A stretch of DNA of 64,000 nt from Lachnospiraceae bacterium. GTDB lineage: Bacteria; Bacillota; Clostridia; Lachnospirales; Lachnospiraceae. Shown one piece after another: positions 1,946 through 46,256 of the stretch (position 1 is the first letter of the stretch; every line of letters begins with the position of its first letter). The notes under the pieces were generated by a model. It was not told the origin of the DNA and did no database searches. It saw only the letters and a program-made list of their open reading frames with translations. Location: assembly GCA_022652545.1 (NCBI GenBank), contig JALCRM010000001.1:372001-436000 (forward strand), in the 5' to 3' direction. A program made the position numbers and the translations under genes.

Positions 1946-2000
1946 AAGGAAGGGAAAAGTTAAAAATGCCGCTGATGCAGCATTTTCAAAACGAAGCGTC

Positions 2001-2020
2001 GGTGCCGATGCACCGGCTGC
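2001..2020 (+). repeat. Intercistronic leader element, copy upstream of dprA (hairpin I only)
   Basis: GGTGC-cgat-GCACC (2001-2014) followed by GGCTGC, 6 bases before the ATGGAGG ribosome site of dprA. The same 20-base module recurs before def (28709) and murD (46201) with U-A to U-G changes in the stem. Confidence 0.6.
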
Positions 2021-2035
2021 ACGATGGAGGTAAAT

Positions 2036-3265
2036 ATGGATATTTATGCATGCTGGCTTTCGCAGGTGCGCGGTCTGGGGAAAGCAACGATCCTTGCACT
2101 GCGGGAGGAGTGGATGACCCGGACGGGAAGAGAGGGAAGAGATTTTGCGGAGGACATACGAAAGATGTCGGAGAGCGAACTACGGGAGCTGTGTGCCTGC
2201 ACTTTCGGAAAAGACGCAGGCGGCGGAGAGGAAGCGGAAACGGCAGCCGGCAGGATATCAGCGGCGGACGAAAAGGACGGAAAGAGCGGAAAGGTATACG
2301 CAATGCTGATGAGCGCCAGAAAGGAGAAGGAAGGGGAAGCCGCTGCCCTTGCAGAAGCCGCAGACGTCCGTTTCCTGTCTTTCGATGACCCGGAGTTTCC
2401 GGACAGACTGCGCAGCATTCCGAGGCCGCCGTACGGACTGTATGTGCGGGGACGGGTACCGGACAGCAGCAGGCCGACATGTGCGGTCATCGGCGCGCGC
2501 ATGGCCTCGGCATACGGCAGGGAGCAGGCGAGGGCTTTCGGAAAGGCCCTCGCCGATGCCGGGATCCCGACAGTGAGCGGAATGGCCCGCGGCGTAGACG
2601 GCATAGCGCAGCGGGCGGCAACGGAAGCGGGAGGATGCTCGTATGCGGTGCTCGGTTGCGGTGCGGATATCTGTTATCCGCAGGAGAACGCTGACCTGTA
2701 TATCGGTCTACTGCGGCATGGCGGGATTCTTTCGGAGTATCCGCCAGGCACTAAAGCGGAAGCCAGGCTCTTTCCGGACCGCAACAGGATCATCTCCGGG
2801 CTGTCGGACACAGTTCTCGTCATTGAAGCCCGGGAACGCAGCGGCACGCTGATCACAGTGGATGCCGCGCTGGAACAGGGCAGGGAGATCGCGGCAGTGC
2901 CGGGCAGGGTCTCCGACGCGCTCAGCTGCGGCTGCAACAGGCTGATCCGGCAGGGAGCGGCCATCGCGACCTGCCCGGACGATGTGATCGAGATGCTGCT
3001 GGGGGTACACAGGCGCAGCCAGGGAGAGGACCGCACTTATACGCGCGGCGAACTGGCTGCCGCGGATCTTCAGGAGCCGGAGCGCACGCTTTATGAGATC
3101 ACAGGGGAGAAGGATTTCTGTGATACCCAGTACCTGCTGGACCGGTTTGAAGAGAAGCGCGGTCATGCACTGCGGGGCGCGGACATCCTACGCTTCATGA
3201 CGATGCTGACAGTCAAAGGACTGGTCGGGGAAGCCGGGACCGGGATCTACAGCCGGATCCTGTAA
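2036..3265 (+). CDS. dprA: DNA-processing protein DprA
   Basis: A 409-residue DprA/Smf protein. It loads RecA onto incoming single-stranded DNA in the cytoplasm. The N-terminal SAM-like region is followed by the Rossmann core with AVIGARMASAYG, TVSGMARGVDGIAQ, AVLGCGADICYP, the FPDRNRIISGLSD block and the ARERSGTLITVDAALEQGR block, all hallmark DprA segments, and a C-terminal winged-helix-like domain that ends at GIYSRIL. The ATG at 2036 is preceded by GGAGG at 2026-2030; an in-frame ATG at 2024 overlaps that ribosome site and is less likely. The gap from yifB contains a weak hairpin (AAAATGC/GCATTTT near 1963-1988) and a leader element shared with other genes. Confidence 0.95.
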   Translation: MDIYACWLSQVRGLGKATILALREEWMTRTGREGRDFAEDIRKMSESELRELCACTFGKDAGGGEEAETAAGRISAADEKDGKSGKVYAMLMSARKEKEGEAAALAEAADVRFLSFDDPEFPDRLRSIPRPPYGLYVRGRVPDSSRPTCAVIGARMASAYGREQARAFGKALADAGIPTVSGMARGVDGIAQRAATEAGGCSYAVLGCGADICYPQENADLYIGLLRHGGILSEYPPGTKAEARLFPDRNRIISGLSDTVLVIEARERSGTLITVDAALEQGREIAAVPGRVSDALSCGCNRLIRQGAAIATCPDDVIEMLLGVHRRSQGEDRTYTRGELAAADLQEPERTLYEITGEKDFCDTQYLLDRFEEKRGHALRGADILRFMTMLTVKGLVGEAGTGIYSRIL

Positions 3266-3300
3266 TACGGCCGGAAGCGCCGGCCGGCGGAAAGGTGTGC

Positions 3301-3330
3301 TTGACAACCGGCTCCGGTTTCCATTATTAT
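3301..3330 (+). promoter_or_regulatory. Promoter of the riboswitch-oad unit
   Basis: TTGACA at 3301-3306 and TATTAT at 3325-3330 with an 18-base spacer (or TTATTA at 17). The predicted start falls a few bases before the riboswitch P1 helix, which supports an independent transcription unit. Confidence 0.75.
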
Positions 3331-3341
3331 TTGAACTATCG

Positions 3342-3485
3342 ATAAAAGGGAGTAGCTGACTGCATGAAAATGCAGTGTCCGGATGCGACATACCCGGTGT
3401 AAAATCACCCGAATCCGGCCAGGAAGGCAACCTGTGGCAAGACTTTTATTACGGCGTCAGGCTGTAATAGAAGTCTTGTTTTTTT
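3342..3485 (+). ncRNA. yybP-ykoY (Mn2+) riboswitch with intrinsic terminator
   Basis: Seen: P1 is ATAAAAG (3342-3348) with CTTTTAT (3443-3449); it is followed by the invariant-looking loop GGAGTAGC and closed by GCAAGA, both identical to the core of known yybP-ykoY aptamers. P2 is ACTGCAT-GAAA-ATGCAGT; P3 is CCGGAT/ATCCGG with an inner loop and GGTG/CACC tip; P4 is CAGG/CCTG. The terminator CAAGACTTTTATTAC (3438-3452) with GTAATAGAAGTCTTG (3464-3478), 15 pairs with one U-G, is followed by seven T. The 3' strand of P1 lies inside the 5' arm of the terminator, so aptamer folding and termination exclude each other: ligand should turn expression on. Family knowledge: this class binds Mn2+. The downstream genes are unusual for it. 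Confidence 0.87.
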
Positions 3486-3496
3486 AGAACCGGAAG

Positions 3497-3536
3497 CAGT
3501 GCCGGAGAACGACTTCGGCCGCACGGTTTACGGAGG
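3497..3536 (+). repeat. Intercistronic leader element, copy upstream of the decarboxylase beta gene
   Basis: GTGCCGGAGAACG...CGGCCGCA followed by CGGAGG. It aligns closely with the leader before hisS (15408-15435), including the shared stretches GTGCCGGAGA and CGGCCGC. It sits between the riboswitch terminator and the start codon. Confidence 0.55.
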
Positions 3537-3542
3537 TGCAAT

Positions 3543-4685
3543 ATGCAGGAACTGAGCAGTCTGTTCGGAAACATAACCAACACGACCTGGCAGATGGCTG
3601 TCATGTGGCTGATCGGCGGCATGATGATCTATCTGGGGATCGAAAAGAAGATGGAGCCCACGCTCCTCATTCCCATGGGGTTCGGCGCCATTCTGGTCAA
3701 TCTGCCGCAGTCGGGCGCAGTGACGCAGACGATCAACAGCGCCGTACAGGAAGGCCCCCTGAATTTTCTTTTCAGGGCCGGCATTTCCAATCAGATCTTT
3801 CTGCTGCTGCTGTTCGTCGGCATCGGCGCAATGATCGATTTTACGCCGCTCCTTGCCGCGCCGCAGATGATGCTCTTCGGAGCCGCGGCGCAGTTCGGTA
3901 TTTTCTTCACGCTGAGTCTTGCCACGCTGTTCGGCTTCAGCCTCCAGGATGCGGCTTCGGTCGGCATTATCGGCGCAGCGGACGGGCCGACATCGATCTT
4001 TGTTGCCAACTACTACAATTCAAAATATCTGGGCGCCATCATTGTGGCGGCATATTCGTACATGGCGCTGGTCCCGATCATTCAGCCGCCTGTTATCCGC
4101 CTCGTCACGACGAAGAAGGAGCGGATGATCCATATGTCCTACAATCCGCGCAGCGTTTCAAAGAAAGCCAAGATCCTGTTCCCCATCCTGATCACCATCG
4201 TGGCCGGCCTTGTGGCTCCCAACAGCGTGGCGCTGGTCGGTTTCCTGATGTTCGGCAACCTGATCCGTGCATGCGGCGTGCTGGATTCTCTGTCGGAGAC
4301 CGCGCAGGGGGCACTGGCCAATCTGATCACTCTGCTGCTCGGCATCACGGTGGCTTCCCAGATGCGTGCGGAAGATTTCCTTACGGCGCGCACGCTGCTG
4401 ATCCTCTGCCTGGGGATGGTCGCATTTATCTTTGACACGGTCGGCGGAGTACTGTTTGCCAAGATCATGAACCTGTTTCTTCCCAAACAGAAAAAGATCA
4501 ATCCCATGATCGGTGCCTGCGGCATTTCTGCTTTTCCGATGTCCGCGCGCGTCATTACGCAGATGGGACTGAAAGAGGACCCTACGAATGTACTGATCAT
4601 GCAGGCGACCGGCGTCAATGTATCCGGACAGATCGCCTCGGTCATCGCCGGCGGGCTGCTGCTCACACTGATTCCGAAGCTTTAA
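3543..4685 (+). CDS. Sodium ion-translocating decarboxylase, beta subunit (OadB/GcdB/MmdB family)
   Basis: A 380-residue, strongly hydrophobic protein with about nine to eleven membrane segments. Diagnostic motifs are GIIGAADGPT (141-150, with Asp147 of the ion and carboxylate site) and NPMIGACGISAFPMSARV (320-337), the second re-entrant element. In the family this subunit decarboxylates carboxybiotin on the partner subunit and exports two Na+ ions. Catalytic residues look intact, so a functional pump is expected. Which acyl substrate is used (oxaloacetate, glutaconyl-CoA, methylmalonyl-CoA) depends on an alpha subunit, and none is encoded here. Start ATG 3543 has GGAGG eight bases upstream. 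Expression is placed under the Mn2+-type riboswitch at 3342-3485. Confidence 0.93.
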   Translation: MQELSSLFGNITNTTWQMAVMWLIGGMMIYLGIEKKMEPTLLIPMGFGAILVNLPQSGAVTQTINSAVQEGPLNFLFRAGISNQIFLLLLFVGIGAMIDFTPLLAAPQMMLFGAAAQFGIFFTLSLATLFGFSLQDAASVGIIGAADGPTSIFVANYYNSKYLGAIIVAAYSYMALVPIIQPPVIRLVTTKKERMIHMSYNPRSVSKKAKILFPILITIVAGLVAPNSVALVGFLMFGNLIRACGVLDSLSETAQGALANLITLLLGITVASQMRAEDFLTARTLLILCLGMVAFIFDTVGGVLFAKIMNLFLPKQKKINPMIGACGISAFPMSARVITQMGLKEDPTNVLIMQATGVNVSGQIASVIAGGLLLTLIPKL

Positions 4686-4758
4686 TGTGTTTTGACGCGT
4701 TCCCGGTGTTTCTGCCGGGACAGAATACGGGGATCACGGATCCCCCGGGGAGGTATAT

Positions 4759-4923
4759 ATGTCAGTATTCATGGAATCGCTCAGAGTCATGGGATTCGGC
4801 ATGCTCGGTATTTTTACCGTTGCGGTCGTGCTGATGCTTATCATGTTTGCGATCACAAAACTTTTTCCGGCCGGCAGGGAAAATGAACAGGCCGGCGGAG
4901 ACAGCTCCGCGGACGACGACTGA
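4759..4923 (+). CDS. Small OadG-like gamma subunit of the decarboxylase pump
   Basis: A 54-residue protein, MSVFMESLRVMGFGMLGIF and on, with one membrane helix (about residues 11-34) and an acidic tail AGGDSSADDD. The sequence GFGMLGIFTVAVVLMLIM resembles the single-span OadG/MmdC gamma chain that ties the carboxyltransferase to the beta subunit. It follows the beta gene after 73 bases and has a GGGGAGG ribosome site. It is shorter than many gamma chains and lacks the long Pro/Ala linker and His-rich end found in enterobacterial OadG. Followed at once by a strong terminator, so the pair is a two-gene unit without alpha or biotin carrier. Confidence 0.72.
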   Translation: MSVFMESLRVMGFGMLGIFTVAVVLMLIMFAITKLFPAGRENEQAGGDSSADDD

Positions 4924-4950
4924 AGCGTCCGCTGTGTTCGGATATCCGGT

Positions 4951-4980
4951 CCCGGGGCCATGCGGCCCCGGGATTTTTTT
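4951..4980 (+). terminator. Intrinsic terminator of the beta-gamma unit
   Basis: Perfect nine-pair GC stem CCCGGGGCC-atgc-GGCCCCGGG (4951-4972), then ATTTTTTT. Confidence 0.92.
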
Positions 4981-5087
4981 GCGGCCGGCGGGCCGGGCAC
5001 CTCTGCGGTGAATAATCTGACTCTGCAGTATTTTAATTAAAGGAGATTTTGTATCGAAAAACAGCCAATGTGAACAGGGCGCACAGA

Positions 5088-5116
5088 TTGAATTGGCATA
5101 GACCTTGTGGTAAATT
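5088..5116 (+). promoter_or_regulatory. Probable ech-hyp operon promoter
   Basis: TTGAAT at 5088-5093, 17-base spacer, TAAATT at 5111-5116 with an extended -10 TGg just before it. A strong AAAGGAG ribosome-like site at 5039-5045 precedes it without a clear gene. Confidence 0.5.
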
Positions 5117-5157
5117 TAAGGCAATCGTTCTTTCCAACTTTGGGAGGGAGTAGTGCT

Positions 5158-7113
5158 ATGCCCATCATTGAGTTCCTTATATTTTTCCCATTCCTTGCTG
5201 CCATCGTTCTGATGTTCATGAAAGAACCTACGGGAAAACGCGCTGCCTTTGCAACCTGCTGCAGTATCGCCATCATGGCGGTATGTATCGTACTGGCTGT
5301 GGAAGTGTGGGGCGGCATGACGCTGCCGGGCGCTGAAGGCAGTGCGAACGTGTTCCTCGTGGATCCGGAACTGTTCAACCTGCTGATCACGGCGGGCGAA
5401 GCTTTTCTGATGTGCCTGGTGATCTATTACGGCATCAGATACAGGAAGTATTACGTCATCCTGCTCTCGGCAGGGCAGACGATCCCGGTGCTGTGGCTCG
5501 ACCTTACAGGCAAAACATCTGCCGCGGCCGCAGGACAGACGTATCTGCGGATCGATAACCTTACGGTGATGATGTGCCTGATCGTCGGTATCGTCGGCGG
5601 ACTGATCTGCATCTATGCCAATGGCTACATCAAGGACTATCACAACCATCATACGGAGTTTCCGAAGCGCTCCAACTGGTTCATGGCCATGCTCTTTGTT
5701 TTTCTGGGTGCCATGTTCGGCCTTCTGTTTTCGGACAACCTCGGCTGGCTCTATTTCTTCTGGGAGATCACGAGCATCTGCTCGTTCCTGCTGATCGGCT
5801 ACAACAAGCTGCCCGTTTCCATCAACAACTCGTTCCGTGCCTTGTGGATGAACCTGCTGGGCGGCTGCGGTTTTGCGGCTGCGATCCTGTATTTGGTGCT
5901 CAATCTGAACATCATCTCGCTTTCCCAGCTCCTGACCTTCAGCGGGGAAAAAGAGATCGTGCTGATCCCCGTCATCCTGCTGGCGTTCGCCGCACTTACC
6001 AAAAGTGCGCAGATGCCTTTCAACGGATGGCTGCTGGGAGCCATGGTCGCGCCCACACCGACTTCCGCACTGCTGCACAGTGCCACGATGGTCAAGGCCG
6101 GCGTCTATCTGCTGATCCGGCTGGCCCCTCTCATGAGCGGCACCCTGGCCGGCCTCATGGTCACTACGGTCGGCGGCTTTACGTTCTTTGCCGCTTCGCT
6201 CATCGCGATCACCCGCAGCGACGGCAAGGGCGTCCTCGCTTATTCGACGATCTCCAACCTGGGACTTATCGCGGCCTGCGCCGGGATCGGCCTGCCTGAA
6301 TCCGTCTGGGCCGGTACGATGCTCATCCTGTTCCATGCCGTTTCAAAATCCCTGATGTTCCTGACCGTCGGCGCCGTGGAAAATGCCACGGGCAGCCGCA
6401 ACATCGAAGATATGACCGGTCTTGTGGTGCGTATGCCCAAGATGGCTGCCGCCATGATCATAGGTATCTGCGGTATGTCTCTGGCACCTTTCGGAATGCT
6501 GGTCGCTAAGTGGGCAGCCCTGAAGTCCTTCGTCGATGCACGCAACGTCCTGATGATCCTGTTCCTGGCGTTCGGCAGTGCCTCCACGACGTTCTACTGG
6601 GTCAAGTGGCTGGGCAAGCTGTTCGCGGTCGTACACCATCAGGATCCTCTGCCGGATACGGTACACCGCGGAGAATGGGCAGCCATTATTCCGCTTTCCG
6701 CACTGGTTGTGGCGATGATGTTCCTTTTCCCTGTCATATCCCAGTATGTCATTATCCCGGTCCTTGCACAGATGTTCGGGGAGAAGATCAGTTCCGTCAT
6801 CAGCCAGGGTGATATGGCCATTATGATCGTCATGCTGGTAATGATTGCGGTGCTGCCGATCGCTCTGCGGCTGGTGAACAAGATCAGGCAGGATGCCAAA
6901 GACAAAGAGACGCTGGTCTACATGAACGGCGCAAACAGCGGTGACGACCGCCATTTCATCAATTCTCTCGGAGAGCAGGAAAGCGATTCCATGAGCAACT
7001 GGTATATGGCGAACTGGTTCTCGGCTGAAAAGATCATGAAGCCCTGCCTGGCAATATCCTCGTTCATGATCATACTTTTCCTGATCTGGGCGATCACAGG
7101 AGGTGCTATCTGA
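5158..7113 (+). CDS. echA: Ech hydrogenase subunit A (NuoL-like ion-pumping subunit)
   Basis: A 651-residue integral membrane protein with about 15 or more helices, in the NuoL/NuoM/MrpA antiporter family. The block NGWLLGAMVAPTPTSALLHS (near residues 303-322) followed by TMVKAGVYLLIRLAP is the classic channel motif, with the Lys of MVKAG and the Lys of ALTKSAQMPF in the predicted ion path. In Ech complexes this subunit carries out ion translocation coupled to ferredoxin-driven H2 formation. The ATG at 5158 is preceded by GGGAGGG; a GTG at 5107 in the same frame lacks a ribosome site. First gene of a six-subunit set; its stop overlaps the echB start by one base. Confidence 0.92.
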   Translation: MPIIEFLIFFPFLAAIVLMFMKEPTGKRAAFATCCSIAIMAVCIVLAVEVWGGMTLPGAEGSANVFLVDPELFNLLITAGEAFLMCLVIYYGIRYRKYYVILLSAGQTIPVLWLDLTGKTSAAAAGQTYLRIDNLTVMMCLIVGIVGGLICIYANGYIKDYHNHHTEFPKRSNWFMAMLFVFLGAMFGLLFSDNLGWLYFFWEITSICSFLLIGYNKLPVSINNSFRALWMNLLGGCGFAAAILYLVLNLNIISLSQLLTFSGEKEIVLIPVILLAFAALTKSAQMPFNGWLLGAMVAPTPTSALLHSATMVKAGVYLLIRLAPLMSGTLAGLMVTTVGGFTFFAASLIAITRSDGKGVLAYSTISNLGLIAACAGIGLPESVWAGTMLILFHAVSKSLMFLTVGAVENATGSRNIEDMTGLVVRMPKMAAAMIIGICGMSLAPFGMLVAKWAALKSFVDARNVLMILFLAFGSASTTFYWVKWLGKLFAVVHHQDPLPDTVHRGEWAAIIPLSALVVAMMFLFPVISQYVIIPVLAQMFGEKISSVISQGDMAIMIVMLVMIAVLPIALRLVNKIRQDAKDKETLVYMNGANSGDDRHFINSLGEQESDSMSNWYMANWFSAEKIMKPCLAISSFMIILFLIWAITGGAI

Positions 7114-7979: not shown

Positions 7980-8010
7980 CGCTGACGCGGTTCAAGGCGG
8001 ACTGCATAAA

Positions 8011-8031: not shown

Positions 8032-8049
8032 AACGGAGGCTTTACAACT

Positions 8050-8487
8050 ATGAAAATGTCAAAATCTCCCTGGCTGCTGCACTATGACGCATCCAGCTGC
8101 AACGGATGCGATATCGAAGTGCTGGCCAGTACCACACCCGTATACGACGTGGAGCGCTTCGGCGTGATCAATACCGGCAACCCGAAACACGCGGACATCC
8201 TGGTGGTGACGGGCGGCGTGAACTACCAGAACAAGCCGGTGCTGGAACAGCTTTATGCGCAGATGCCGGATCCGAAGGTCGTTGTGGCGGCCGGGATCTG
8301 TGCCTGTGACGGCGGTGTGTTCAAGGATTGCTATAACATTCTCGGCGGTATTGACAAGGTCATTCCGGTAGACGTATACGCACCCGGCTGTGCAGTGCGC
8401 CCCGAGTGCCTGATCGACGCCGTGGTGAAGGCCATCGCGATCCTCGATGAAAAGCGCGCCAGGATGAAGGCGGAAAACAAAGCCTGA
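8050..8487 (+). CDS. echC: Ech hydrogenase small subunit (NuoB-like, proximal 4Fe-4S cluster)
   Basis: A 145-residue protein of the [NiFe]-hydrogenase small subunit / NuoB family. Cluster ligands are visible: Cys17 and Cys20 (SSCNGCDIE), Cys84 (AAGICACDGG) and Cys114 (YAPGCAVRPE). The CxxC spacing is that of group 4 hydrogenases. It carries the single 4Fe-4S cluster next to the NiFe site and passes electrons from the EchF ferredoxin-like subunit to EchE. It is short, with no twin-arginine leader, consistent with a cytoplasm-facing complex. The ATG at 8050 has ACGGAGG upstream. Confidence 0.95.
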   Translation: MKMSKSPWLLHYDASSCNGCDIEVLASTTPVYDVERFGVINTGNPKHADILVVTGGVNYQNKPVLEQLYAQMPDPKVVVAAGICACDGGVFKDCYNILGGIDKVIPVDVYAPGCAVRPECLIDAVVKAIAILDEKRARMKAENKA

Positions 8488-8563
8488 AAGTGCGGCCAGT
8501 ACCCCGCTTTCAGACCGCGGCGGCTACGGCAGCCTGACAGATACACGGAGGTGTAAATTCAGA

Positions 8564-8920
8564 ATGAGACAACCAATACGCGCCGGCGAGATGATGATCT
8601 GTGAGATCGATCCGGACACCCTGCTGGATGAAGTGACAAAACTGAAGTATTCCGAGTGGCGCCTGATGCAGATCTGCGCGACCAAAACAGGAGAAGACAG
8701 TTATGAGGTCCTGTATACGTTCGGACACGGCTACCGCCTGCGCAGTATCCGCCTGAAAATCAGCGGAGAGGCAAAACTTTCCAGCATCACGAGCATATAT
8801 CCGATCGCCTATCTGTATGAAAATGAAATGCACGATCTTTTCGGCATAGAGATCGACATGATCAATATCGATTTCAAAGGCGGACTTTTCCGCACGGGAG
8901 TCAAGGCTCCCTTCAAATAG
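8564..8920 (+). CDS. echD: Ech hydrogenase subunit D (NuoC-like, 30 kDa family)
   Basis: A 118-residue protein of the respiratory-chain 30 kDa subunit family. The end of the domain, with YPIAYLYENEMHDLFGIEIDM, is the family signature (E-x-E-x-x-D-x-F-G). It is a structural partner of the large subunit. The ATG at 8564 lies about 12 bases after GGAGG, slightly long, but no other start fits. A 76-base gap precedes it and a leader element with two hairpins follows it. Confidence 0.9.
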   Translation: MRQPIRAGEMMICEIDPDTLLDEVTKLKYSEWRLMQICATKTGEDSYEVLYTFGHGYRLRSIRLKISGEAKLSSITSIYPIAYLYENEMHDLFGIEIDMINIDFKGGLFRTGVKAPFK

Positions 8921-8935
8921 AGGCTGGCGGGGCGC

Positions 8936-8992
8936 CAGAGAGCGGTTTCGGCCGCCCTATTCGGAGAACCCGAAGGTTCTCCTCACGGAGGA
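8936..8992 (+). repeat. Intercistronic leader element, copy upstream of echE (both hairpins)
   Basis: Hairpin I region GAGAGCGG..GGCCGCC (8938-8956) closely matches the hisS leader. Hairpin II is perfect: GGAGAACC-CGAA-GGTTCTCC at 8963-8982, then TCAC and GGAGG. Hairpin II ends four bases before the ribosome site of echE. Confidence 0.7.
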
Positions 8993-8998
8993 ATCAAT

Positions 8999-10078: not shown

Positions 10079-10088
10079 GGTGCAGACA

Positions 10089-14339: not shown

Positions 14340-15374
14340 ATGCTCGAAGAAACGATCACAATGGCACACGGAAGCGGTGGAGAGTCCACCGGCAGGCTCA
14401 TTTCAGAGCTGTTTGCAAAGAGTTTTCACAATGCCTACCTGGACAGGCTGACGGATTCCTCCGTCGTGCCGGTGCCGGCAGGCAGCGGTTCGATCGCCAT
14501 GACGACGGACAGTTTTGTCGTTACGCCTTATTTTTACGCGGGCGGGGACATCGGCAGACTTTCGGTCTGCGGCACGGTGAATGATCTGCTCATGAGCGGC
14601 GCAACACCGAAATATCTCACAGCCGGTTTTATTCTGGAGGAAGGACTGCCGTCCGCGGATCTCGGGAAGATCGTGAATTCCATGGCGGCAACCGCTGCAG
14701 AGGCCGGTGTCATGATCGTGACCGGCGATACAAAGGTCGTGGAATCGCGCAGCGGAACAGGCAGGGGCGGATTGATGATCAATACCGCCGGAGTAGGTGT
14801 TTTTGAGGACGGCGTGCCCGATATGGGTCCCGACCGGCTCGAAGCCGGCGATGTACTGTTGCTTTCGGGAACGCTCGGCGAGCACCATGCCACGATCCTG
14901 TCGGCGCGCATGGGTATGGAAAACAGCGGGATCGAAAGCGACAACGCGCCGCTGACGGAGATCGTGAAAAACCTGAAGACATCCGGCGTGCGGGTCCGCG
15001 CGATGCGCGATGTGACACGCGGCGGACTGGCCACGGTGCTGAATGAGTTCGTCTCCGCATCCGGCGTGACGATCACGGTCGAACAGGAGAAGGTGCCGGT
15101 GCGGGAAAGCGTGCGAAGCTTCTGCGGTGTGCTGGGACTTGACCCGCTGTATATGGGAAACGAAGGCAAAATGGCAGTTGCTGTGGCAGGCTGCGATGCG
15201 GATGCCGCGCTGGCGGCCATGAAGCGGAGCCGCTACGGGGCGGATGCCGCAGTCATCGGGAAGGTCTCGGATCCCGGGGAAGGCGGAAAGCCGGTGCTGC
15301 TGCTGTCTACGGGGATAGGCGGCAGAAGGGTGCTGGGGCCGCTGTACGGGGAAGGACTGCCGCGGATCTGCTGA
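14340..15374 (+). CDS. hypE: Hydrogenase maturation protein HypE
   Basis: A 344-residue member of the PurM/AIR synthase-like family. The N-terminal MAHGSGGESTGRLISELF and the C-terminal LPRIC are typical; the last residue Cys344 is the acceptor of the carbamoyl group from HypF, which HypE dehydrates to thiocyanate with ATP. Start ATG 14340 is preceded by GGAGGAAGA. Last gene of the ech-hyp unit. hypA and hypB (nickel delivery) are not in the window. Confidence 0.95.
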   Translation: MLEETITMAHGSGGESTGRLISELFAKSFHNAYLDRLTDSSVVPVPAGSGSIAMTTDSFVVTPYFYAGGDIGRLSVCGTVNDLLMSGATPKYLTAGFILEEGLPSADLGKIVNSMAATAAEAGVMIVTGDTKVVESRSGTGRGGLMINTAGVGVFEDGVPDMGPDRLEAGDVLLLSGTLGEHHATILSARMGMENSGIESDNAPLTEIVKNLKTSGVRVRAMRDVTRGGLATVLNEFVSASGVTITVEQEKVPVRESVRSFCGVLGLDPLYMGNEGKMAVAVAGCDADAALAAMKRSRYGADAAVIGKVSDPGEGGKPVLLLSTGIGGRRVLGPLYGEGLPRIC

Positions 15375-15408
15375 GCGTAGTATACTATTACGGCAAAAGC
15401 CGCTGCAG

Positions 15409-15467
15409 CGGTGCCGGAGAGCGGCACCGGCCGCCTGTTTCGAAGAATCTGACGATTTATTTGGAGG
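15409..15467 (+). repeat. Intercistronic leader element, copy upstream of hisS (both hairpins)
   Basis: Hairpin I is perfect: CGGTGCCG-gagag-CGGCACCG (15409-15429). The linker GCCTGTTTC matches the def leader. Hairpin II is a degenerate GAAGAATC-TGAC-GATTTATT (15442-15461), then TGGAGG. It shares GAGAGCGG and GGCCGCC with the echE leader. Confidence 0.65.
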
Positions 15468-26415: not shown

Positions 26416-28689
26416 TTGGATACAAAACCATATGCGTATGCGGAAGTGATCATCGACATCTCGCATGAAAAACTGGATCATCCGTTTACATACAGGATCC
26501 CGGATACGCTGCGCGGCACCCTGAAGCCGGGCGACCGCGTGGAAGTGCCCTTCGGAAAGGGAGATACAGGCAGGCAGGGGTATGTGGTGGGACTTGCGGA
26601 GCACTGTGATCTGCCGGCCGGAAAGGTCAAGGAGATCACGTCCCTGTCAGCAGGCAAAACAGGACCCGGCACGGACGACGGAAGCGAGCGGGCGGTCGAA
26701 CTCGCAGCCTGGATGAAGGAACGTTACGGATCCACGTTTATCACCGCCCTGAAGACGGTGCTGCCCATGCGCCGGGAAGTCAGGCCGCTGCAGCAGAAAA
26801 CGCTGGTCCTGACGGCCGGCGAGGAAGAAGCGCGCGAAAGGCTTGCGCTTTACCGCCAAAAGCATCAGATCGCAAGGGCAAGACTGCTCGAAGGTCTGCT
26901 CGAAGTGCCGGAACAGCCGTACGCACTGGCAACCGATAAACTTCACGTCACGGCTGCCACTGTGAGATCCCTTGAGAACAGCGGCCTGCTGCGCGTGGAA
27001 GTGGAGACATCCCTGCGCAACCCGGTCAGGGAAAGAAACGGGGAGGCAGATACGCTCGAGCTGTCTTCCGGCCAGCAGGACTGCATCCGCGGCGTGCTGG
27101 ATGATTTTGACCGGAAGAAGGCCACTGTGAGTCTGCTGCACGGCATCACAGGGAGCGGGAAGACCGAGGTCTATATCCGGATCGCCGAGGGGATCGTGGC
27201 CCGCGGCCGCCAGGTGATCGTGCTGATTCCCGAGATCGCGCTGACCTACCAGACGCTGCTGCGGTTTTATGCACATTTCGGAGACCGCGTTTCCGTTATG
27301 AATTCCACGCTCTCGGCAGGCGAAAAGCACGACCAGTTCCGGCGTGCCAGGGAAGGCGGGATCGATGTGATCATCGGCCCGCGCAGCGCGCTGTTTACGC
27401 CCTTTCCGAAACTCGGTGCCATTATCATGGACGAGGAGCAGGAGAACAGCTATAAAAACGAGAATATGCCCAAGTACCACGCAAGGGATGTGGCGGTCAG
27501 GATCGCAGCCATGCAGGGTGCCGTGGTGCTGCTGGGCTCCGCCACGCCGTCCCTGGAGTCCTATTACCTTGCTTCGGCAGGCACGTACCGTCTTTACGAG
27601 CTGAACAGCAGGCTCACCGGAGGAACGCTGCCCGCAGCGCATATCGTGGATATGCGGGAGGAACTGAAGGAGGGAAACCGCACCATGTTTTCCTCACAGC
27701 TCCAGTCGCTTATGGAAGACAGGCTCTCGAGGAAGGAACAGACCATCCTCTTCCTGAACCGCAGGGGATATGCTGGTTTTGTATCCTGCCGCGCCTGCGG
27801 ACACGTCATGAAATGCCCCCATTGCAGCGTTTCGCTTTCGGAGCACATGCACGGCAGGCTCGTATGCCATTACTGCGGCTATGAGCAGCCGGCGGTCAGG
27901 GTCTGCCCGGAATGCGGCTCCAGATACATCGCGGGATTCAGGGCGGGGACGGAACAGATCGAGATACAGCTGCAGCGCATGTACCCGCAGGCACGCGTGC
28001 TCCGGATGGACGCCGATACGACAGCCAGGAAAGAGTCCTATGAAAAGATCCTGTCCTCTTTTGCAAACGAAGAGGCGGATATTCTGCTGGGGACCCAGAT
28101 GATCGTCAAGGGCCACGACTTTCCCAATGTGACGCTTGTCGGTGTCCTGATGGCGGATCTGTCGCTGAATGCAGGCGACTATCGTGCATCGGAGCGCACC
28201 TTCCAGCTGCTGACGCAGGCGGCAGGGCGGGCAGGCCGCGGCACGAGGCCGGGGGAAGTCGTGATCCAGACCTACGAACCGGACAACTATGCGGTCAGGG
28301 CAGCTGCGGCGCAGGACTACAGGGCCTTCTACGACGAAGAGATCCGCTACAGGCAGCTCCTTCAGTATCCGCCGGTGTGCCATATGCTTGCCGTGCAGAT
28401 CCAGGACAGGGACGAGGACACTGCGCTCGCCGCCATCGGGGAAGTGCGCGGCATGCTGGAAACGGAGGACGGTGCGGGGGAGAGCATCGTGATCGGCCCG
28501 TCAGCCGCGGCCACCTCCAAACTGCGCGACAGCTATCGCTTCGTCGTCTATATTAAAAATGCAAAGTATGATAAACTTGTGCGGTACAAAGACAGGATCG
28601 AAGAGTACTGGAAGGGCCTTACGGCCGCGGCGTCGCGCTTTTTTGACACACAGCTGCAGTTCGATTTCGATCCCGTGAATCCGTATTGA
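26416..28689 (+). CDS. priA: Primosomal replication restart helicase PriA
   Basis: A 757-residue PriA. The N-terminal DNA-binding domain (YAEVIIDISHEKLDHPFTY) is followed by helicase motif I GITGSGKTEVYI, motif II IIMDEEQENSYK (DEEQ here, where DEEH is common), and the zinc-binding block CRACGHVMKCPHC..CHYCGY..CPECGS. It reloads the replicative helicase at stalled forks. The start is TTG at 26416, eight bases after CGGAGG; no ATG with a ribosome site is nearby. Confidence 0.95.
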   Translation: MDTKPYAYAEVIIDISHEKLDHPFTYRIPDTLRGTLKPGDRVEVPFGKGDTGRQGYVVGLAEHCDLPAGKVKEITSLSAGKTGPGTDDGSERAVELAAWMKERYGSTFITALKTVLPMRREVRPLQQKTLVLTAGEEEARERLALYRQKHQIARARLLEGLLEVPEQPYALATDKLHVTAATVRSLENSGLLRVEVETSLRNPVRERNGEADTLELSSGQQDCIRGVLDDFDRKKATVSLLHGITGSGKTEVYIRIAEGIVARGRQVIVLIPEIALTYQTLLRFYAHFGDRVSVMNSTLSAGEKHDQFRRAREGGIDVIIGPRSALFTPFPKLGAIIMDEEQENSYKNENMPKYHARDVAVRIAAMQGAVVLLGSATPSLESYYLASAGTYRLYELNSRLTGGTLPAAHIVDMREELKEGNRTMFSSQLQSLMEDRLSRKEQTILFLNRRGYAGFVSCRACGHVMKCPHCSVSLSEHMHGRLVCHYCGYEQPAVRVCPECGSRYIAGFRAGTEQIEIQLQRMYPQARVLRMDADTTARKESYEKILSSFANEEADILLGTQMIVKGHDFPNVTLVGVLMADLSLNAGDYRASERTFQLLTQAAGRAGRGTRPGEVVIQTYEPDNYAVRAAAAQDYRAFYDEEIRYRQLLQYPPVCHMLAVQIQDRDEDTALAAIGEVRGMLETEDGAGESIVIGPSAAATSKLRDSYRFVVYIKNAKYDKLVRYKDRIEEYWKGLTAAASRFFDTQLQFDFDPVNPY

Positions 28690-28708
28690 AACATGGGGAA
28701 AACAGATC

Positions 28709-28772
28709 GGTGCCGACGCGCCGGCTGCCTGTTTCAGAGAACAAATTCAAAATCCTTAAAACGGGTTTGAAT
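28709..28772 (+). repeat. Intercistronic leader element, copy upstream of def
   Basis: GGTGC-CGAC-GCGCC-GGCTGC (28709-28728) then CTGTTTCAGAGAAC, nearly identical to the murD leader at 46201. Here hairpin II is replaced by an AT-rich stem ATTCAAA/TTTGAAT (28745-28772). Confidence 0.65.
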
Positions 28773-28801
28773 TATAAGGTTTTCTTCCTAGAGGTGTGAG
28801 A

Positions 28802-37601: not shown

Positions 37602-37621
37602 GGAGAATCTGAAGATTCTTC
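37602..37621 (+). repeat. Intercistronic leader element, copy upstream of ychF (hairpin II only)
   Basis: GGAGAATC-TGAA-GATTCTTC with one G-U, then TCAATAGAGTGGAGG. Compared with the echE and murD copies, the C-G pair next to the loop is replaced by T-A, a compensatory change. Confidence 0.65.
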
Positions 37622-37642
37622 TCAATAGAGTGGAGGAAAGAG

Positions 37643-40224: not shown

Positions 40225-40248
40225 GATGCGCACGGGGGAAGAAAAACA

Positions 40249-40277
40249 TTGAAAAAGCACAGTCGGAAGCGTATTAT
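40249..40277 (+). promoter_or_regulatory. Promoter of the mraZ division cluster
   Basis: TTGAAA (40249-40254), 17-base spacer, TATTAT (40272-40277). The start should fall near 40284, at the edge of the MraZ-like boxes. Confidence 0.75.
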
Positions 40278-40286
40278 TCAGGTATG

Positions 40287-40337
40287 TAAGTGGAGCAAAG
40301 TGGTGGTTAAGAGGATATAAGTGCCACGAAATGGTGG
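40287..40337 (+). promoter_or_regulatory. Candidate MraZ operator (repeated AAGTGG boxes)
   Basis: TAAGTGG (40287), AAAGTGG (40297), then imperfect copies ATAAGTG (40317) and AAATGGTGG (40329). The first two are exactly ten bases apart, box plus three bases, as described for AAAGTG-type MraZ boxes in Mollicutes. They lie just after the -10 hexamer, fit for autorepression. Confidence 0.6.
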
Positions 40338-40390
40338 AAAATGTACCGTGCTCCGACGAAACGACGGTTTCGGAAAAGGCGGACGCGCTT

Positions 40391-40840: not shown

Positions 40841-40870
40841 GCGATCGCGGACCGATCCGGGAGAAGAAAA

Positions 40871-41863: not shown

Positions 41864-41911
41864 TCTGATGACCCGGGAGACCGGCGGTACAGGATCAGAG
41901 GGGGGACCAAA

Positions 41912-42418
41912 GTGAGCAGAGCAGCATACTCCAGGCAGACATACAGAAAAGACAGCGGCACACGGACAGCACAGGCACGCAGATACCGTGACCGCGGCAG
42001 CGCCTATCTTTACGGCTCCGAGGCACCGGAGCTGGCCTACAGGGAGAGAGAACGCCGTGCCGTCAGGCAGCCGCAGAGAACGCGTACGGCAGAACGGGAA
42101 GAGAACAGCCTGTTTTCCGTCATACTGGTTGTCTTCATGCTTGCGGTCCTTACGGCTTCGGTGATCGGCTATGTACAGCTGATGTCGAATGTTTCGGCAA
42201 CCTCGAACAGCATCAGCTCGCTGGAGACGCAGATCAAAAATCTGAAAACGAGCAATGACCAGAAGTACGCTGAGATCACGAGCAGCATCAGCCTGGACAA
42301 GATCAAGGAGATCGCCATCAACGAACTTCATATGAAATACGCAGACGAAAGCCAGATCGTGACATACAGCAATGATACGGGCGACTATGTGAAACAGCTC
42401 CAGGAAGTAGGAAAATAG
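41912..42418 (+). CDS. ftsL: FtsL-like cell division protein
   Basis: A 168-residue bitopic protein with a basic cytoplasmic part (1-64, rich in Arg), one membrane helix (66-88) and a coiled-coil-like segment (about 92-125), then a short tail. Low sequence identity is normal for FtsL; the call rests on topology and position between rsmH and a class B PBP. It should form the FtsL-FtsB-DivIB type complex that activates septal wall synthesis. The cytoplasmic part is longer than in most FtsL. Start GTG 41912 with GGGGGAC upstream. Confidence 0.8.
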   Translation: MSRAAYSRQTYRKDSGTRTAQARRYRDRGSAYLYGSEAPELAYRERERRAVRQPQRTRTAEREENSLFSVILVVFMLAVLTASVIGYVQLMSNVSATSNSISSLETQIKNLKTSNDQKYAEITSSISLDKIKEIAINELHMKYADESQIVTYSNDTGDYVKQLQEVGK

Positions 42419-42477
42419 GGCACGCGGCGACACACAGGTGATTGAGAAAACAGGCGGAACAAAAACATGGCGGATGT

Positions 42478-42496
42478 GAAGCTGCTGCGCAGCTTC
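42478..42496 (+). repeat. Hairpin upstream of the internal ftsI promoter
   Basis: Perfect GAAGCTGC-tgc-GCAGCTTC with no T-run; it overlaps the -35 area of the promoter at 42494-42523, so it may be a transcript end or a binding palindrome. Confidence 0.4.
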
Positions 42497-42523
42497 AACG
42501 TACTGGCTTGATTGTGGTATAAT
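42494..42523 (+). promoter_or_regulatory. Internal promoter ahead of ftsI
   Basis: TTCAAC (42494-42499), 18-base spacer, TATAAT (42518-42523) with an extended -10 TGg (42515-42517). Expected start near 42530. Confidence 0.65.
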
Positions 42524-42546
42524 TTGGCCGACATGGTAACCGCTGC

Positions 42547-42583
42547 AGATGATCGAGCAGGTTTCCTGCTCGATCATCTTTTT
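42547..42583 (+). terminator. Terminator or attenuator immediately before ftsI
   Basis: AGATGATCGAGCAGG-ttt-CCTGCTCGATCATCT (15 pairs, 42547-42579) with TTTTT at 42579-42583. It ends about two bases before the AAAGGTGAT ribosome site and 13 before the TTG start of ftsI, and lies downstream of the internal promoter. Confidence 0.8.
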
Positions 42584-42596
42584 GAAAGGTGATCTA

Positions 42597-45146
42597 TTGA
42601 ACAACCGGGACAGCAGACAACAGCATGAAAAACAGGATACGGAAGTGCAGAACCGGTTCCGTTTCCACAGCTTCCGACATTTCAGCCGCAAGATGCGCCA
42701 CAGGCTGGCGATGCTCTTTACTTTGCTGCTCATCCTGTTTTGCACGCTGATCGTGCGTATCGTAAAGATCAACGCCAACAACGGCGATGCGTACAAACGG
42801 CAGGTACTGCTCCAGCAGGCGTACGATTCTCAGCCGATCCCTTTTAAGCGAGGCACCATCACGGACACCAAAGGAACGGTCCTGGCTACCAGTACGCTGG
42901 TTTACAATGTGGTCGTCGACTCCAAGGAGATCCTGAGTGATGATAAGTATCTCGAGCCCACGCTGAATGCGATCAGCCAGGTATTCGGCACCGACATAAG
43001 CACGCTGCGAACATATATACAGGACCATCCGACCTCCCGCTACTATGTGATCGACAAGAAAGTGGATCCTTCCCTGAAAACAAAGTTCGATGCCCTTGTC
43101 GCGGACCAGGGAAAGGACAGCAGCGGCAGGCAGAACGACAACATACAGGGCGTCTGGTTTGAGGAAGCCTATATCCGCAGTTATCCGAACGATTCCCTGG
43201 CCAGCAACGTGATCGGTTTTACCGGCAGCGACAATACAGGTACGTACGGCCTGGAACAGTACTACAACGATACGCTGAACGGAACGCCCGGGCGCAGCTA
43301 CGGCTACATCGGCGACAACAGTGACATTGAGAAGACGACGATCCCCGCCACGGACGGAGACAGCCTGGTGCTGACCCTGGATTCCAACGTCCAGAGCATC
43401 GTCGAAAAATATCTGCAGAAATACAACGATGAATACAAGGACCAGGTGAGGGACGGCAACGGCGCACGCAATATCGGCTGCATCATCATGGACTGCAAAA
43501 CAGGCGGCATCCTTGCGATGGCCGACTATCCCAGTTATAACCTCAACGATCCGTACAATACCGATCCGCTGGTGGGCATGACAAAACTGGATTTCACCAA
43601 CAACGACTCTCCGATGACGGATGCTTATCTGACGCAGGAAGACGTGGATGCCCTGACGGATGAAGAGAAGGGCAAGTACCTGAACGCCCTCTGGAAAAAC
43701 TTCTGTATATCTGATTTTTACGAACCAGGATCTGTCATTAAGCCGTTTACCGTAGCGGCCGGCCTGGAGTCCGGCAGTTTTTCCCCGACTTCCACCTACG
43801 TCTGTACCGGTTCCTACACGGTGGACGGGCAGACCATCAAGTGCCATAATACTTTCGGTGACGGGACGCTGACAGTCAGTGAGGCCATCGAACGCTCCTG
43901 TAACGTTTCCCTTATGCAGATGGCACTTCAGGAGGGCGTGCAGGTCTTCAGCAAGTTTCAGAATGTTTTCAATTTCGGCCTGAAGACAAATATCGATCTG
44001 GCAAATGAAGCCCGGACGGATTCCATGATCTACAAAGCCGGTGATATGAAGGCAGTGGATCTGGCCACGAATTCCTTTGGCCAGAACTTTGACGTCACCA
44101 TGATCCAGGTGGCCGCGGGATTCTGTTCGCTGGTCAACGGGGGCAACTATTACCAGCCGCACGTGGTGAGCCGTATTACAGGCCCTTCCGGCGCGACCGT
44201 TCAGAACATCGATCCGGAAGTGATCAAGAAGACGGTTTCTCCGGATACCAGCGCATGGATCCGTTCCTTCTGCGAGCAGGTCGTGGAAGGAGAGCACGGA
44301 ACAGGACGGACGGCACGCCCGGCCGGGTACAGGATCGGCGGCAAGACAGGTACTGCAGAGACACTGCCCAGAAGGAACGGACAGTATGTGGTCTCTTTCC
44401 TGGGGTTTGCGCCGGCAGATGATCCGCAGATCGTTTGCTATGTTGTCGTAGATCGTCCCAACACCAGCCCGCAGGACAATGCCAAGCTGGCTACGGTGGT
44501 CTTTCGCAATATCCTGACAGAGGTTCTGCCGTATCTGGGCATACCGATGACGGAATCCCTTTCTGACGAGGAAAAACAGGAACTGCAGCAGCTGCAGGAT
44601 TCCGGTACCATAGCCCTGGGTGCGGATGCGATCGCCAAAATGGATGAAGCCTCTTCGGACGGCTCTTCGGCGGGGACCTCTTCGGGCACCGGCGGATCCT
44701 CTGCAGCCGGCGAGTCCTCCGCGGCAGGTGAGTCTTCCGCGGACGGCGGTTCATCGGCAGCCGGGGAATCCGCGGCGGCAGGCGATTCTTCCGCAGACGG
44801 CGGGTCAGGCACCGGCACAGGTGACAGCGCCGCAGCGGCAGATGAAGCATGGAAATCTTTCCCCGTCGATCCTTCCACGGGGTATCTGATCGATCCGGCC
44901 ACCAATCTCTATGTGGATCCGGATACCGGCCACGAATACGATGTCGGGCCGGCCACGGCCCTCACGCCGGCAGCCGGCGACGGCACTGTGCAGGATGGCG
45001 GAGACGGCACTCCGGCAGCGGTCCCGGGCACCGATACGGGGACGGCAGAAGGAGCAGGCACCGGCACGGGAACAGATACCGGAACGGATACAGGGACAGG
45101 CACCGCAGGTACCGGCACGGGTGACGGTACGGCAGCGGCACAGTAA
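42597..45146 (+). CDS. ftsI: Class B penicillin-binding protein (FtsI/SpoVD type) with Gly/Ser/Thr-rich tail
   Basis: An 849-residue transpeptidase with one membrane helix (about 36-54). Active-site motifs are SVIK (379-382, in YEPGSVIKPF), SCN (434-436) and KTG (583-585, RIGGKTGTAE). It cross-links septal peptidoglycan with FtsW. There is no PASTA domain; instead residues 684-849 form a low-complexity tail, first Ser/Ala/Gly (GESSADGGSSAAG), then a short WKSFPVDPSTGYLIDP segment, then Gly/Thr repeats to the end. The start is TTG 42597 after AAAGGTGAT; the in-frame ATG at 42549 lies inside the terminator stem and is rejected. FtsI versus SpoVD cannot be decided here. Confidence 0.93.
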   Translation: MNNRDSRQQHEKQDTEVQNRFRFHSFRHFSRKMRHRLAMLFTLLLILFCTLIVRIVKINANNGDAYKRQVLLQQAYDSQPIPFKRGTITDTKGTVLATSTLVYNVVVDSKEILSDDKYLEPTLNAISQVFGTDISTLRTYIQDHPTSRYYVIDKKVDPSLKTKFDALVADQGKDSSGRQNDNIQGVWFEEAYIRSYPNDSLASNVIGFTGSDNTGTYGLEQYYNDTLNGTPGRSYGYIGDNSDIEKTTIPATDGDSLVLTLDSNVQSIVEKYLQKYNDEYKDQVRDGNGARNIGCIIMDCKTGGILAMADYPSYNLNDPYNTDPLVGMTKLDFTNNDSPMTDAYLTQEDVDALTDEEKGKYLNALWKNFCISDFYEPGSVIKPFTVAAGLESGSFSPTSTYVCTGSYTVDGQTIKCHNTFGDGTLTVSEAIERSCNVSLMQMALQEGVQVFSKFQNVFNFGLKTNIDLANEARTDSMIYKAGDMKAVDLATNSFGQNFDVTMIQVAAGFCSLVNGGNYYQPHVVSRITGPSGATVQNIDPEVIKKTVSPDTSAWIRSFCEQVVEGEHGTGRTARPAGYRIGGKTGTAETLPRRNGQYVVSFLGFAPADDPQIVCYVVVDRPNTSPQDNAKLATVVFRNILTEVLPYLGIPMTESLSDEEKQELQQLQDSGTIALGADAIAKMDEASSDGSSAGTSSGTGGSSAAGESSAAGESSADGGSSAAGESAAAGDSSADGGSGTGTGDSAAAADEAWKSFPVDPSTGYLIDPATNLYVDPDTGHEYDVGPATALTPAAGDGTVQDGGDGTPAAVPGTDTGTAEGAGTGTGTDTGTDTGTGTAGTGTGDGTAAAQ

Positions 45147-45192
45147 TGACGGACAGCACAGAAACCAATACGAAAGGAACGGTACAAAATAC

Positions 45193-46170
45193 ATGCCAAA
45201 CGGAATGAAATTTGCTGATGAGGTCCTTCCGCTGATTCTGGCCTTCGCGATCTCGGCCGTTACAGGCCATTTCCTGATTCCTTTTCTCCGCAGGATCGGA
45301 GCAAAACAGACAGAACGGGATGACGGTCCCAAAAGTCACCTCGAAAAAACAGGAACGCCCAATATGGGCGGTATCATGATCCTTGCGGCGGTCGTTGCGG
45401 TAGGCATCATTTATTCTTTCCGCTATCCGGAGATCGTACCCGTGCTCATCCTCACCGTCGGTTTCGGCATGGTAGGGTTCGTGGATGATTTTATCAAGGT
45501 CGTGCTCAAGCGTTCCATGGGGCTTCGCGCCTGGCAGAAGATGCTTCTGCAGATCGTGATCGCTCTGATCTTTGCAGCTTATATCGGCACTTTCCATCAT
45601 ATTCCGCTTTCTATGAAACTGCCGTTTGCGGCCGGCTGCTATGCGGATTTCGGGATCTTCAACATCCCCGTATTTCTGTTCATTGCGGTGGCCACGGTGA
45701 ACGGGACCAATTTTACCGACGGTGTCGACGGACTGGCTTCCAGCGTTACGATCGCAACGGCGCTTTTTTTCACTGCCGCCGCCGTGCTGTCCGGTTCCGG
45801 GATCGCCCCGGCCGGAGCGGCGATGATCGGTGCGCTGCTGGGCTTCCTCGTTTTCAACTGCCATCCGGCCAGAGTTTTCATGGGAGATACCGGTTCGCTG
45901 GCGCTGGGAGGTTTTGTGACCGCCATGGCCTATATGCTCCAGCTTCCGCTTTTCATACCGATCGTCGGCTTTATCTATATGCTGGAAGTCATTTCGGTCA
46001 TCATTCAGGTGCTGTATTTCAGATCTACGCACGGAAAGCGGTTTTTCCGCATGGCGCCGATCCACCACCATTTTGAACTGGGAGGCTGGTCGGAAACGAA
46101 AGTGGTAGCCATCTTTACGATCATCACGGTGCTCCTCGGATGTTTTTCTCTGCTGGGGCTCTGGTACTGA
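45193..46170 (+). CDS. mraY: Phospho-N-acetylmuramoyl-pentapeptide transferase MraY
   Basis: A 325-residue protein with about ten membrane helices. Seen: KSHLEKTGTPNMGGIM, FVDDFIKV with the catalytic Asp pair, NGTNFTDGVDGLASS, GDTGSLALGG and the RMAPIHHHFELGGWSE loop. It makes lipid I from UDP-MurNAc-pentapeptide and undecaprenyl phosphate. Start ATG 45193 (MPNGMKF); AAAGGA is 14-15 bases upstream, so ATG 45205 is possible. A longer frame from 44911 runs through the ftsI tail and is rejected. Confidence 0.94.
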   Translation: MPNGMKFADEVLPLILAFAISAVTGHFLIPFLRRIGAKQTERDDGPKSHLEKTGTPNMGGIMILAAVVAVGIIYSFRYPEIVPVLILTVGFGMVGFVDDFIKVVLKRSMGLRAWQKMLLQIVIALIFAAYIGTFHHIPLSMKLPFAAGCYADFGIFNIPVFLFIAVATVNGTNFTDGVDGLASSVTIATALFFTAAAVLSGSGIAPAGAAMIGALLGFLVFNCHPARVFMGDTGSLALGGFVTAMAYMLQLPLFIPIVGFIYMLEVISVIIQVLYFRSTHGKRFFRMAPIHHHFELGGWSETKVVAIFTIITVLLGCFSLLGLWY

Positions 46171-46200
46171 TAAAACAGGAGGAGAAGAAACCGCAGCATC

Positions 46201-46256
46201 GGTGCTGACGCGCCGGCTGCTCATTTCAGAGAACCTGACGGTTCTCTTCATGGAGG
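46201..46256 (+). repeat. Intercistronic leader element, copy upstream of murD (both hairpins)
   Basis: Hairpin I GGTGC-TGAC-GCGCC (46201-46214) then GGCTGC; linker TCATTTC; hairpin II AGAGAACC-TGAC-GGTTCTCT (46228-46247), perfect; then TCATGGAGG. It is the most complete copy in the window. Confidence 0.75.

Follow-up and report, generated by a model that had tools for sequence, protein, structure and literature searches.

REP and REPIN elements, which are associated with RAYT transposases, are short palindromic repeats that lie between genes in many copies and pair strongly; we know of no REP copies that target the Shine–Dalgarno (SD) motif. Here we describe a repeat that resembles them in being short, palindromic, intergenic, strongly paired and present in many copies. 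It was noticed in a 64-kb stretch of DNA (the window: C1:372001–436000, 56.5% G+C) from the draft genome of a Lachnospiraceae bacterium (G000; 2.67 Mb in 27 contigs, 81% complete), where an earlier note had described related hairpin leaders just before the ribosome-binding sites of seven genes. We consider it probable, at roughly 0.7, that these leaders belong to a family of small palindromic repeats with several hairpins and a mobile-like character, which insert between the SD motif and the start codon of a host gene and bring their own replacement SD.

The nearest analogue that we could read about is the pneumococcal BOX element, which is described with RUP and SPRITE in Streptococcus pneumoniae and S. 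suis (PMC3049150). In the accessible part of that paper, BOX is a small modular repeat (boxA, boxB and boxC) with predicted stem-loops, a module number that varies in tandem and no informative link to gene function, all of which the present element shares. The same part regards BOX elements as parasitic, mentions one copy combined with T-box riboswitches and reports over-representation between convergent genes (16 copies, compared with 70 upstream of coding sequences; P = 0.0017). The positional bias of our element is different. Unlike BOX, 83 of the 84 copies of its module C in G000 are sense-oriented before either the start of an open reading frame (ORF; 62 copies) or another unit (21 copies), and placement between an SD and an ATG is not described for BOX in the accessible part of PMC3049150. 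This comparison is one of description and layout, not of sequence.

Miniature inverted-repeat transposable elements (MITEs) and Correia elements, as far as they are covered in the available background text of PMC3049150, are also small and highly base-paired and, perhaps like the present repeat, show duplicated bases beside the insertion in some copies; the present element differs from them in having GC-rich stems and several hairpins in series. No terminal inverted repeats were noticed by eye, a parent transposon not having been sought systematically. Like small interspersed palindromic repeats in general, the element occurs as many dispersed, similar copies of 50–200 nt, at sites that, for the four genes compared, are not shared with relatives (other species). 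Among the matches listed from the open-access literature, seen as titles and the beginnings of abstracts, there was no account of this layout or of SD-targeted repeats, a weak absence because subscription journals fall mostly outside that scope. On balance, the element is best read as a BOX/MITE-like kind of small palindromic repeat with a different positional bias.

A modular repeat present in many copies

The repeat, of two or three hairpins, is about 100 nt long and is made up of modules A, B and C. In copies read by eye in G000, a host SD is followed by hairpins A and B, and these by a linker, hairpin C, a second SD and ATG. Hairpin A has the sequence GTTTGAAAGTGCCGC-TGAT-GCGGCACTTTCAAAC, hairpin B is GCAGC-AT-CGGTGC-TGAC-GCACCG-GCTGC, the linker between B and C is CCATTTC, and hairpin C is GGAGAACC-TGAC-GGTTCTCC, followed on its 3′ side by TCATGGAGG and then usually by 4–7 nt and ATG. 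The two-hairpin layout of the earlier note corresponds to B (its hairpin I) and C (its hairpin II); hairpin A, present before dprA at 1958–1991, had been overlooked. Variant modules also occur, namely A2, A′ (CATGACG...CGTCATG) and a module D between B and C, and a second hairpin is nested within the C loop in three copies (def, C4:165040 and C5:90547). When the 84 C copies of G000 were sorted by a mismatch rule, 28 were A-B-C, 11 B-C, 13 half-B-C and 3 A..C; of the remainder, 11 carry module D (2 of these together with A) and 18 were read as C only.

Units are arranged in tandem at many places in G000, in keeping with the modular character that had been proposed. At C3:2874–3119 (L021), tandem A′-hairpin units form an in-frame ORF of 70 amino acids (MTLCADAPIVM...) in which every unit has an ATG after an SD; this ORF is possibly an incidental translation of the repeat. 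At C2:233000–233340 (L117), a three-unit array stands directly after a terminator resembling a T-box attenuator, before a presumed thrS.

We estimated copy number with models R1 (modules A and B, 28 rows, expectation value (E) ≤0.01) and R2 (module C, 28 rows, E ≤0.1). In G000 they gave 45 and 84 matches, respectively, which provides the further genome copies that a model search had been expected to reveal. Among 20 other genomes searched with R2, there was one marginal match (E 0.096), and the R2 copies in G000 exceed chance. Used as a DNA query, the murD leader alone found 46 matches in G000 (E ≤10), of which the next-best four are 92–95% identical over 59–65 nt.

A third model, R3, covers A+B only and was built from 86 rows of alignment A4, which spans nine species (E ≤0.001). 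For the cross-species alignment, 76 of 89 sources were used, 8 with A′ copies and 5 that were partial or weak being left out, and the E limit moved from 0.05 to 0.0017. R3 matched 24 of 62 genomes of the genus, G000 included, and copy number within the genus ranged from 0 to 52 per genome. Thirteen genomes had at least six matches: G043 (52), G000 (42), G023 (42), G006 (35), G054 (28), G046 (26), G067 (23), G068 (12), G070 (10), G060 (9), G055 (9), G005 (8) and G029 (6). The other eleven had one to three each, several of them near the limit. When 392 genomes sampled evenly across the order were searched, matches at 1e-5 were confined to G000 and to G413, a genome from another genus of the same family.

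The order A-B-C(-extra hairpin) is kept in G006, G005, G023, G043, G054, G055, G050 and G413, with different stem letters. An inner C resembling AAACCGC-NTNC-GCGGATTT with one bulged A is found in the main G006 form, G005, G043, one G054 form, G023, G050 and G413; the inner C is different in G055, the other G054 form and G000. A second G006 subfamily (C138, C159, C136 and others; L155, L143 and L157) has the same hairpin A, but its B and C stems differ and it has a fourth hairpin (GCCGC...GCGGC), with GGGGTATA after it in some copies. G043 holds many near-identical copies, seven of them sharing the top score, which suggests recent spread.

Stems covary but do not favour G-U pairs

Pairing holds in 95.6% of the cells of alignment A1, where 14 of 26 pairs have changed on both sides. 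In alignment A2, 98.4% of cells pair and 4 of 8 pairs have changed on both sides, a value reached by 12 of 500 shuffles. Across A4, pairing is retained in 94.5% of cells and 24 of the 26 A+B pairs have changed on both sides, compared with a mean of 14 in shuffles and at most 11 in slid controls, A4 having been fitted to the tested structure. The exchange of C-G for T-A next to the loop of hairpin C, which the earlier note had pointed out, is seen clearly (17 CG and 7 UA in 24 distinct rows).

Under selection on RNA pairing, G-U would be expected to be tolerated, unlike A-C. The mispairs in A4 comprise 27 G-U and 38 A-C cells; G-U is thus no commoner than A-C, and wobble gives no support to RNA selection. 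The argument that wobble keeps the stems paired, so that RNA structure must be selected, is therefore not supported, despite the strong covariation. Module C in G000 has 14 G-U and 8 A-C mispairs (50 distinct rows, with 23 rows that are not 36 nt long skipped), and the stems of 30 G000 tRNAs have 54 G-U and no A-C among 667 pairs, although ARAGORN may omit mismatches from its brackets. Maintenance of the hairpins at the level of DNA explains the mispair pattern at least as well.

Many copies lie between two SD-like motifs, and orthologous leaders of four genes have no intact copy

Of the 62 C copies directly before an ORF start (≥60 amino acids), 59 precede ATG, and 54 of the 62 starts lie 4–7 nt past the match. 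The sole G000 C copy with neither an ORF start nor a unit just 3′ is C13:29842–29877 (L015). The downstream genes, named by reading without a family search, are unrelated and include asd, sufB, pgi, murD, thrS, argB, clpP, gcvH, oppF, glycosyltransferases, lipoproteins and others.

A second SD-like motif lies 3–9 nt 5′ of hairpin A in 13 of 17 intact single copies (SD-like 5-mer in a 16-nt window; binomial P = 1.6e-9 at a background of 12%). This motif was found in 9% of random windows and in 10 of 84 upstream windows; in the count, the single copy C10:82250, with GAGAGG on its left, was sorted as tandem by a text rule. The same motif precedes all eight of the G005 copies whose left end is intact and all four G055 copies that were read. 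On the right, 7 of 9 G005 copies have the same GAGGTATA, so the element there seems to carry its own SD.

In G000, the bases that follow the left SD recur after the right SD more often than expected by chance. They are identical over at least 3 nt in 6 of 13 single copies, compared with 1.1 expected (P = 0.00055), and at 10 of 18 tandem joints, compared with 3.2 expected (none of 20,000 permutations as high); this test left out 14 of the 45 R1 matches, for which the rule detected an SD-like motif on neither side. Read by eye, the spacers of C2:86844 match over 5 nt and those of dprA and C10:69463 do not match, with a single-copy total of 6/13.

Orthologous sites were compared for four genes. 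In G000, asd is preceded by AGGAGGAATGAA, the element and ATG, and in G029 and G050 by an SD directly before ATG. At sufB, G000 has GCAGAGGTATAA, the element and ATG, and in G029 and G050 the end of sufC lies right at the sufB start. An R3 scan of 104 orthologue loci (29 ychF, 17 murD, 29 sufB and 29 asd) found no intact leader copy; these loci are from different species rather than strains, some end at contig ends, and R3 covers A+B only. The single weak leader match (L191, G006 ychF, E 0.49) is perhaps a worn hairpin A. Two further loci contain copies away from the tested leader, one just after sufB (L262, G006) and one about 1.4 kb upstream (L264, G043). The gene start could not be read by script in 1 of 30 ychF, 10 of 18 murD, 7 of 30 sufB and 2 of 30 asd loci (sets that include G000), where leaders were read by eye; the R3 scan is independent of these starts. 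The true sufB start in G000 lies 12 nt past the script-called start, which sits inside the element. The absence of the element from orthologous leaders speaks for insertion rather than a conserved regulatory leader. In this sense, one of the two outcomes that the earlier note named as refuting its view, a lack of stem conservation in orthologous leaders, did occur; the other, an absence of further copies, did not. Together with the unrelated downstream genes, the tandem arrays and the seven equally top-scoring copies of G043, the element-free leaders support the proposal of a mobile-like intercistronic element.

In the closest relatives, ychF is preceded by a different hairpin (GGTGTGC...GCACACC) before GTTATGGAGG (L189 in G050 and L190 in G029), perhaps a worn or separate leader repeat.

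Copies within the window

The features of the window are collected in Table 1. Of the seven leaders claimed there, four (dprA, echE, ychF and murD) are clear copies. The models match hisS and def weakly and leave the decarboxylase leader at 3497 unmatched; a possible degenerate copy at 8482–8533 had gone unlisted. The R1 match at dprA and the R2 matches at echE and murD arise partly by construction, because these copies are rows in the respective training sets. The observation itself is real and larger than reported, which leaves the earlier note partly confirmed and its interpretation as a whole partly supported.

Table 1. Copies of the repeat, and one unconfirmed candidate leader, in the window. 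E-values are for models R1 (A+B) and R2 (C+SD), calculated for 64 kb.
Feature	Position	Strand	Evidence
dprA copy, R1 match	1958–2020	+	R1 E 4.4e-10; R1 training row
dprA hairpin A (AGTTAAAAATGCCGC-TGAT-GCAGCATTTTCAAAA), 15 bp	1958–1991	+	Within R1 match; row of A1
dprA hairpin B, then ACGATGGAGGTAAATATG; no hairpin C	1993–2020	+	R1 match, mismatch scan
Claimed decarboxylase copy: local hairpin before SD, family membership unsupported	3497–3536	+	Unmatched by R1 and R2 at E ≤10
Possible degenerate A(-B) copy before ORF at 8564	8482–8533	+	R1 E 0.023
GC-rich stretch before echE, perhaps a B remnant	8926–8955	+	By eye; no R1 match at E ≤10
echE linker, hairpin C and SD	8956–8991	+	R2 E 2.2e-12; R2 training row
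hisS hairpin B variant (CGGTGCCGGAGAGCGGCACCG)	15370–15434	+	R1 E 0.067, weak; B loop GGAGA shared with G000 copy C16:13174 (by eye)
hisS linker, hairpin C and SD	15435–15467	+	R2 E 0.04, weak
def hairpin B	28701–28728	+	7 mismatches to B consensus; R1 28679–28728, E 0.32, weak
def hairpin C with nested hairpin in loop, and SD	28729–28794	+	R2 E 0.71, weak; form shared with C4:165040 and C5:90547
ychF hairpin C alone; used SD further on	37602–37624	+	R2 E 1.3e-5; outside training set
murD R1 match (A+B model)	46164–46220	+	R1 E 4.8e-5
murD hairpin B (GCAGC-AT-CGGTGC-TGAC-GCGCCG-GCTGC)	46193–46220	+	1 mismatch to B consensus
murD linker, hairpin C and SD (GGAGG); start codon 46262	46221–46256	+	R2 E 2.1e-14; R2 training row

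Fold z-scores were −5.9 for a full copy (L012), −2.4 for murD, −1.9 for hisS, −1.6 for dprA, −1.4 for echE, −1.1 for both the decarboxylase leader and def, and 0.02 for ychF; single-sequence folds are a weaker guide to membership than the models. In an Rfam scan of the window at curated cut-offs, tRNA alone was matched.

Two other repeats were seen in the window. Directly before the decarboxylase gene, 5′ of 3497, positions 3430–3490 contain a long inverted repeat and a T-run (CAAGACTTTTATTAC...GTAATAGAAGTCTTGTTTTTTT) and look like a terminator. At 51506–51604, just 3′ of tRNA-Ala (51383–51455), there are two 46-nt direct repeats that start 53 nt apart and are 72% alike.

Discussion

We favour the reading in which the element inserts between the SD and the start codon of a host gene. 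Its 3′ end would carry or recreate a GGAGG-type SD a few bases before ATG, so that the downstream gene keeps an initiation site and the old SD is stranded upstream; the gene would still be translatable because the inserted repeat brings a second SD. Loss of sequence at the 5′ side would subsequently have left many copies as B-C, half-B-C or only C. An enzyme may drive insertion, and the hairpins may matter chiefly at the DNA level, in mobility, and less as a regulatory RNA.

Several observations weigh against this reading. In four of the 17 intact single copies, hairpin A is not preceded by an SD-like motif. The spacer run is zero in 7 of 13 single copies, asd and sufB included, so classical target-site duplication is not proven, and the unmatched spacers at asd and sufB tell against strict duplication. 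Several of 19 G043 copies (L314, L315, L317, L318, L319 and L321) are not followed by an SD and ATG, which in a draft of about 140 contigs with near-identical repeats reflects either real truncation or misassembly. The genomes compared are other species, with no second strain, and insertion polymorphism was not seen. Finally, a search of 28 genomes for Y1 genes did not point to a transposase, and we identified no other mobiliser.

Carriage by phages or plasmids was also considered and rejected: a search of 72,556 plasmid records and 50,697 phage records gave no match to a full copy at E ≤0.01. In viral contigs, one exact pattern for hairpin A had no match, and a pattern for the C core had a single match, which on reading was taken for chance.

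The best-surviving alternative, which we nonetheless regard as unlikely, keeps the mobile origin and proposes that the copies are now selected as stabilisers or insulators, guarding the 5′ end of a processed cistron or blocking coupling to upstream ribosomes. It would suit the arrangement of the genes, since 59 of the 84 copies share their strand with the longest ORF that ends no more than 400 nt upstream of C (median 64 nt before C), as well as the excess of C over A+B matches (84 versus 45) and the stability of the full copy L012, which folds at −56 kcal/mol. Retention of C would be expected in any case because C carries the SD, and by crude ORF calling the longest nearby upstream ORF is on the opposite strand for 23 of 84 copies and absent for 2.

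Slightly less probable again is a cis-regulatory RNA, either a riboswitch or a protein-binding leader shared by one regulon, in which the hairpins gate the SD through pairing with the 3′ arm of C or the linker. The location of the copies at the SD and the strong covariation are what such an RNA would show, and the linker pairs with the first G's of the SD slightly more than in shuffles: 212 of 268 cells pair, compared with a shuffled mean of 203, and 6 of 5,000 shuffles are as high (79 of the 84 C matches used, 67 distinct). We rejected a riboswitch or regulon as the main explanation because the downstream genes are unrelated, with no common function visible among them, and because orthologous leaders of the four genes are without intact copies. 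Also against it are the near confinement of the G000 form of module C to its own genome (the one marginal match in 20 others) and the failure of G-U to be favoured over A-C.

Known RNA families point the same way, as no Rfam family matches the element at curated score in the window or in the seven other loci scanned. Clostridiales-1 RNA (RF01699) is likewise a multi-hairpin RNA family, with matches beside copies at L066 2317–2637 and L223 1185–1352 (genomes G023 and G050). Its consensus is another one, and its matches adjoin or partly overlap copies and never take in the whole element: the L066 match is below the curated score and partly over the copy, and the L223 match, the sole one above cut-off in the seven loci, is off the copy.

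In a REP/REPIN-type system, a Y1 (HUH) transposase would act on hairpins in single-strand DNA next to a short target. Hairpins that have a short target-like motif to their left, and a similar one where they end on the right, fit this general scheme. Such a system is nonetheless very improbable here, because across 28 genomes (incomplete drafts) Y1 gene presence does not track the element as in REP/REPIN with RAYT: six carriers out of 14 have PF01797, as do seven of the 14 genomes that lack R3 matches, and it is absent from G000, G006, G054, G046, G068, G060, G029 and G050 (G000 81% and G060 63% complete).

Strong covariation upstream of many genes, then, need not mean a riboswitch. If copies insert beside the SD and replace it, a parasitic repeat could enter tight operons without silencing their genes, and new 5′ leaders and SDs would arise from it naturally. 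We can tentatively go further, at somewhat less than even odds, and suppose that this is mobile DNA of a new class, one that seeks out the region where translation starts, recognizing the host SD, inserting just after it and rebuilding a working SD at its own 3′ end; were this true, insertion inside operons would be nearly harmless, and the element would radiate into species-specific families of compensating hairpins. With dozens of copies per genome and compensated stems in the nine species of A4, the family offers a ready test of how palindromes are maintained, whether by RNA function, by an enzyme acting on DNA hairpins or by template-switch repair.

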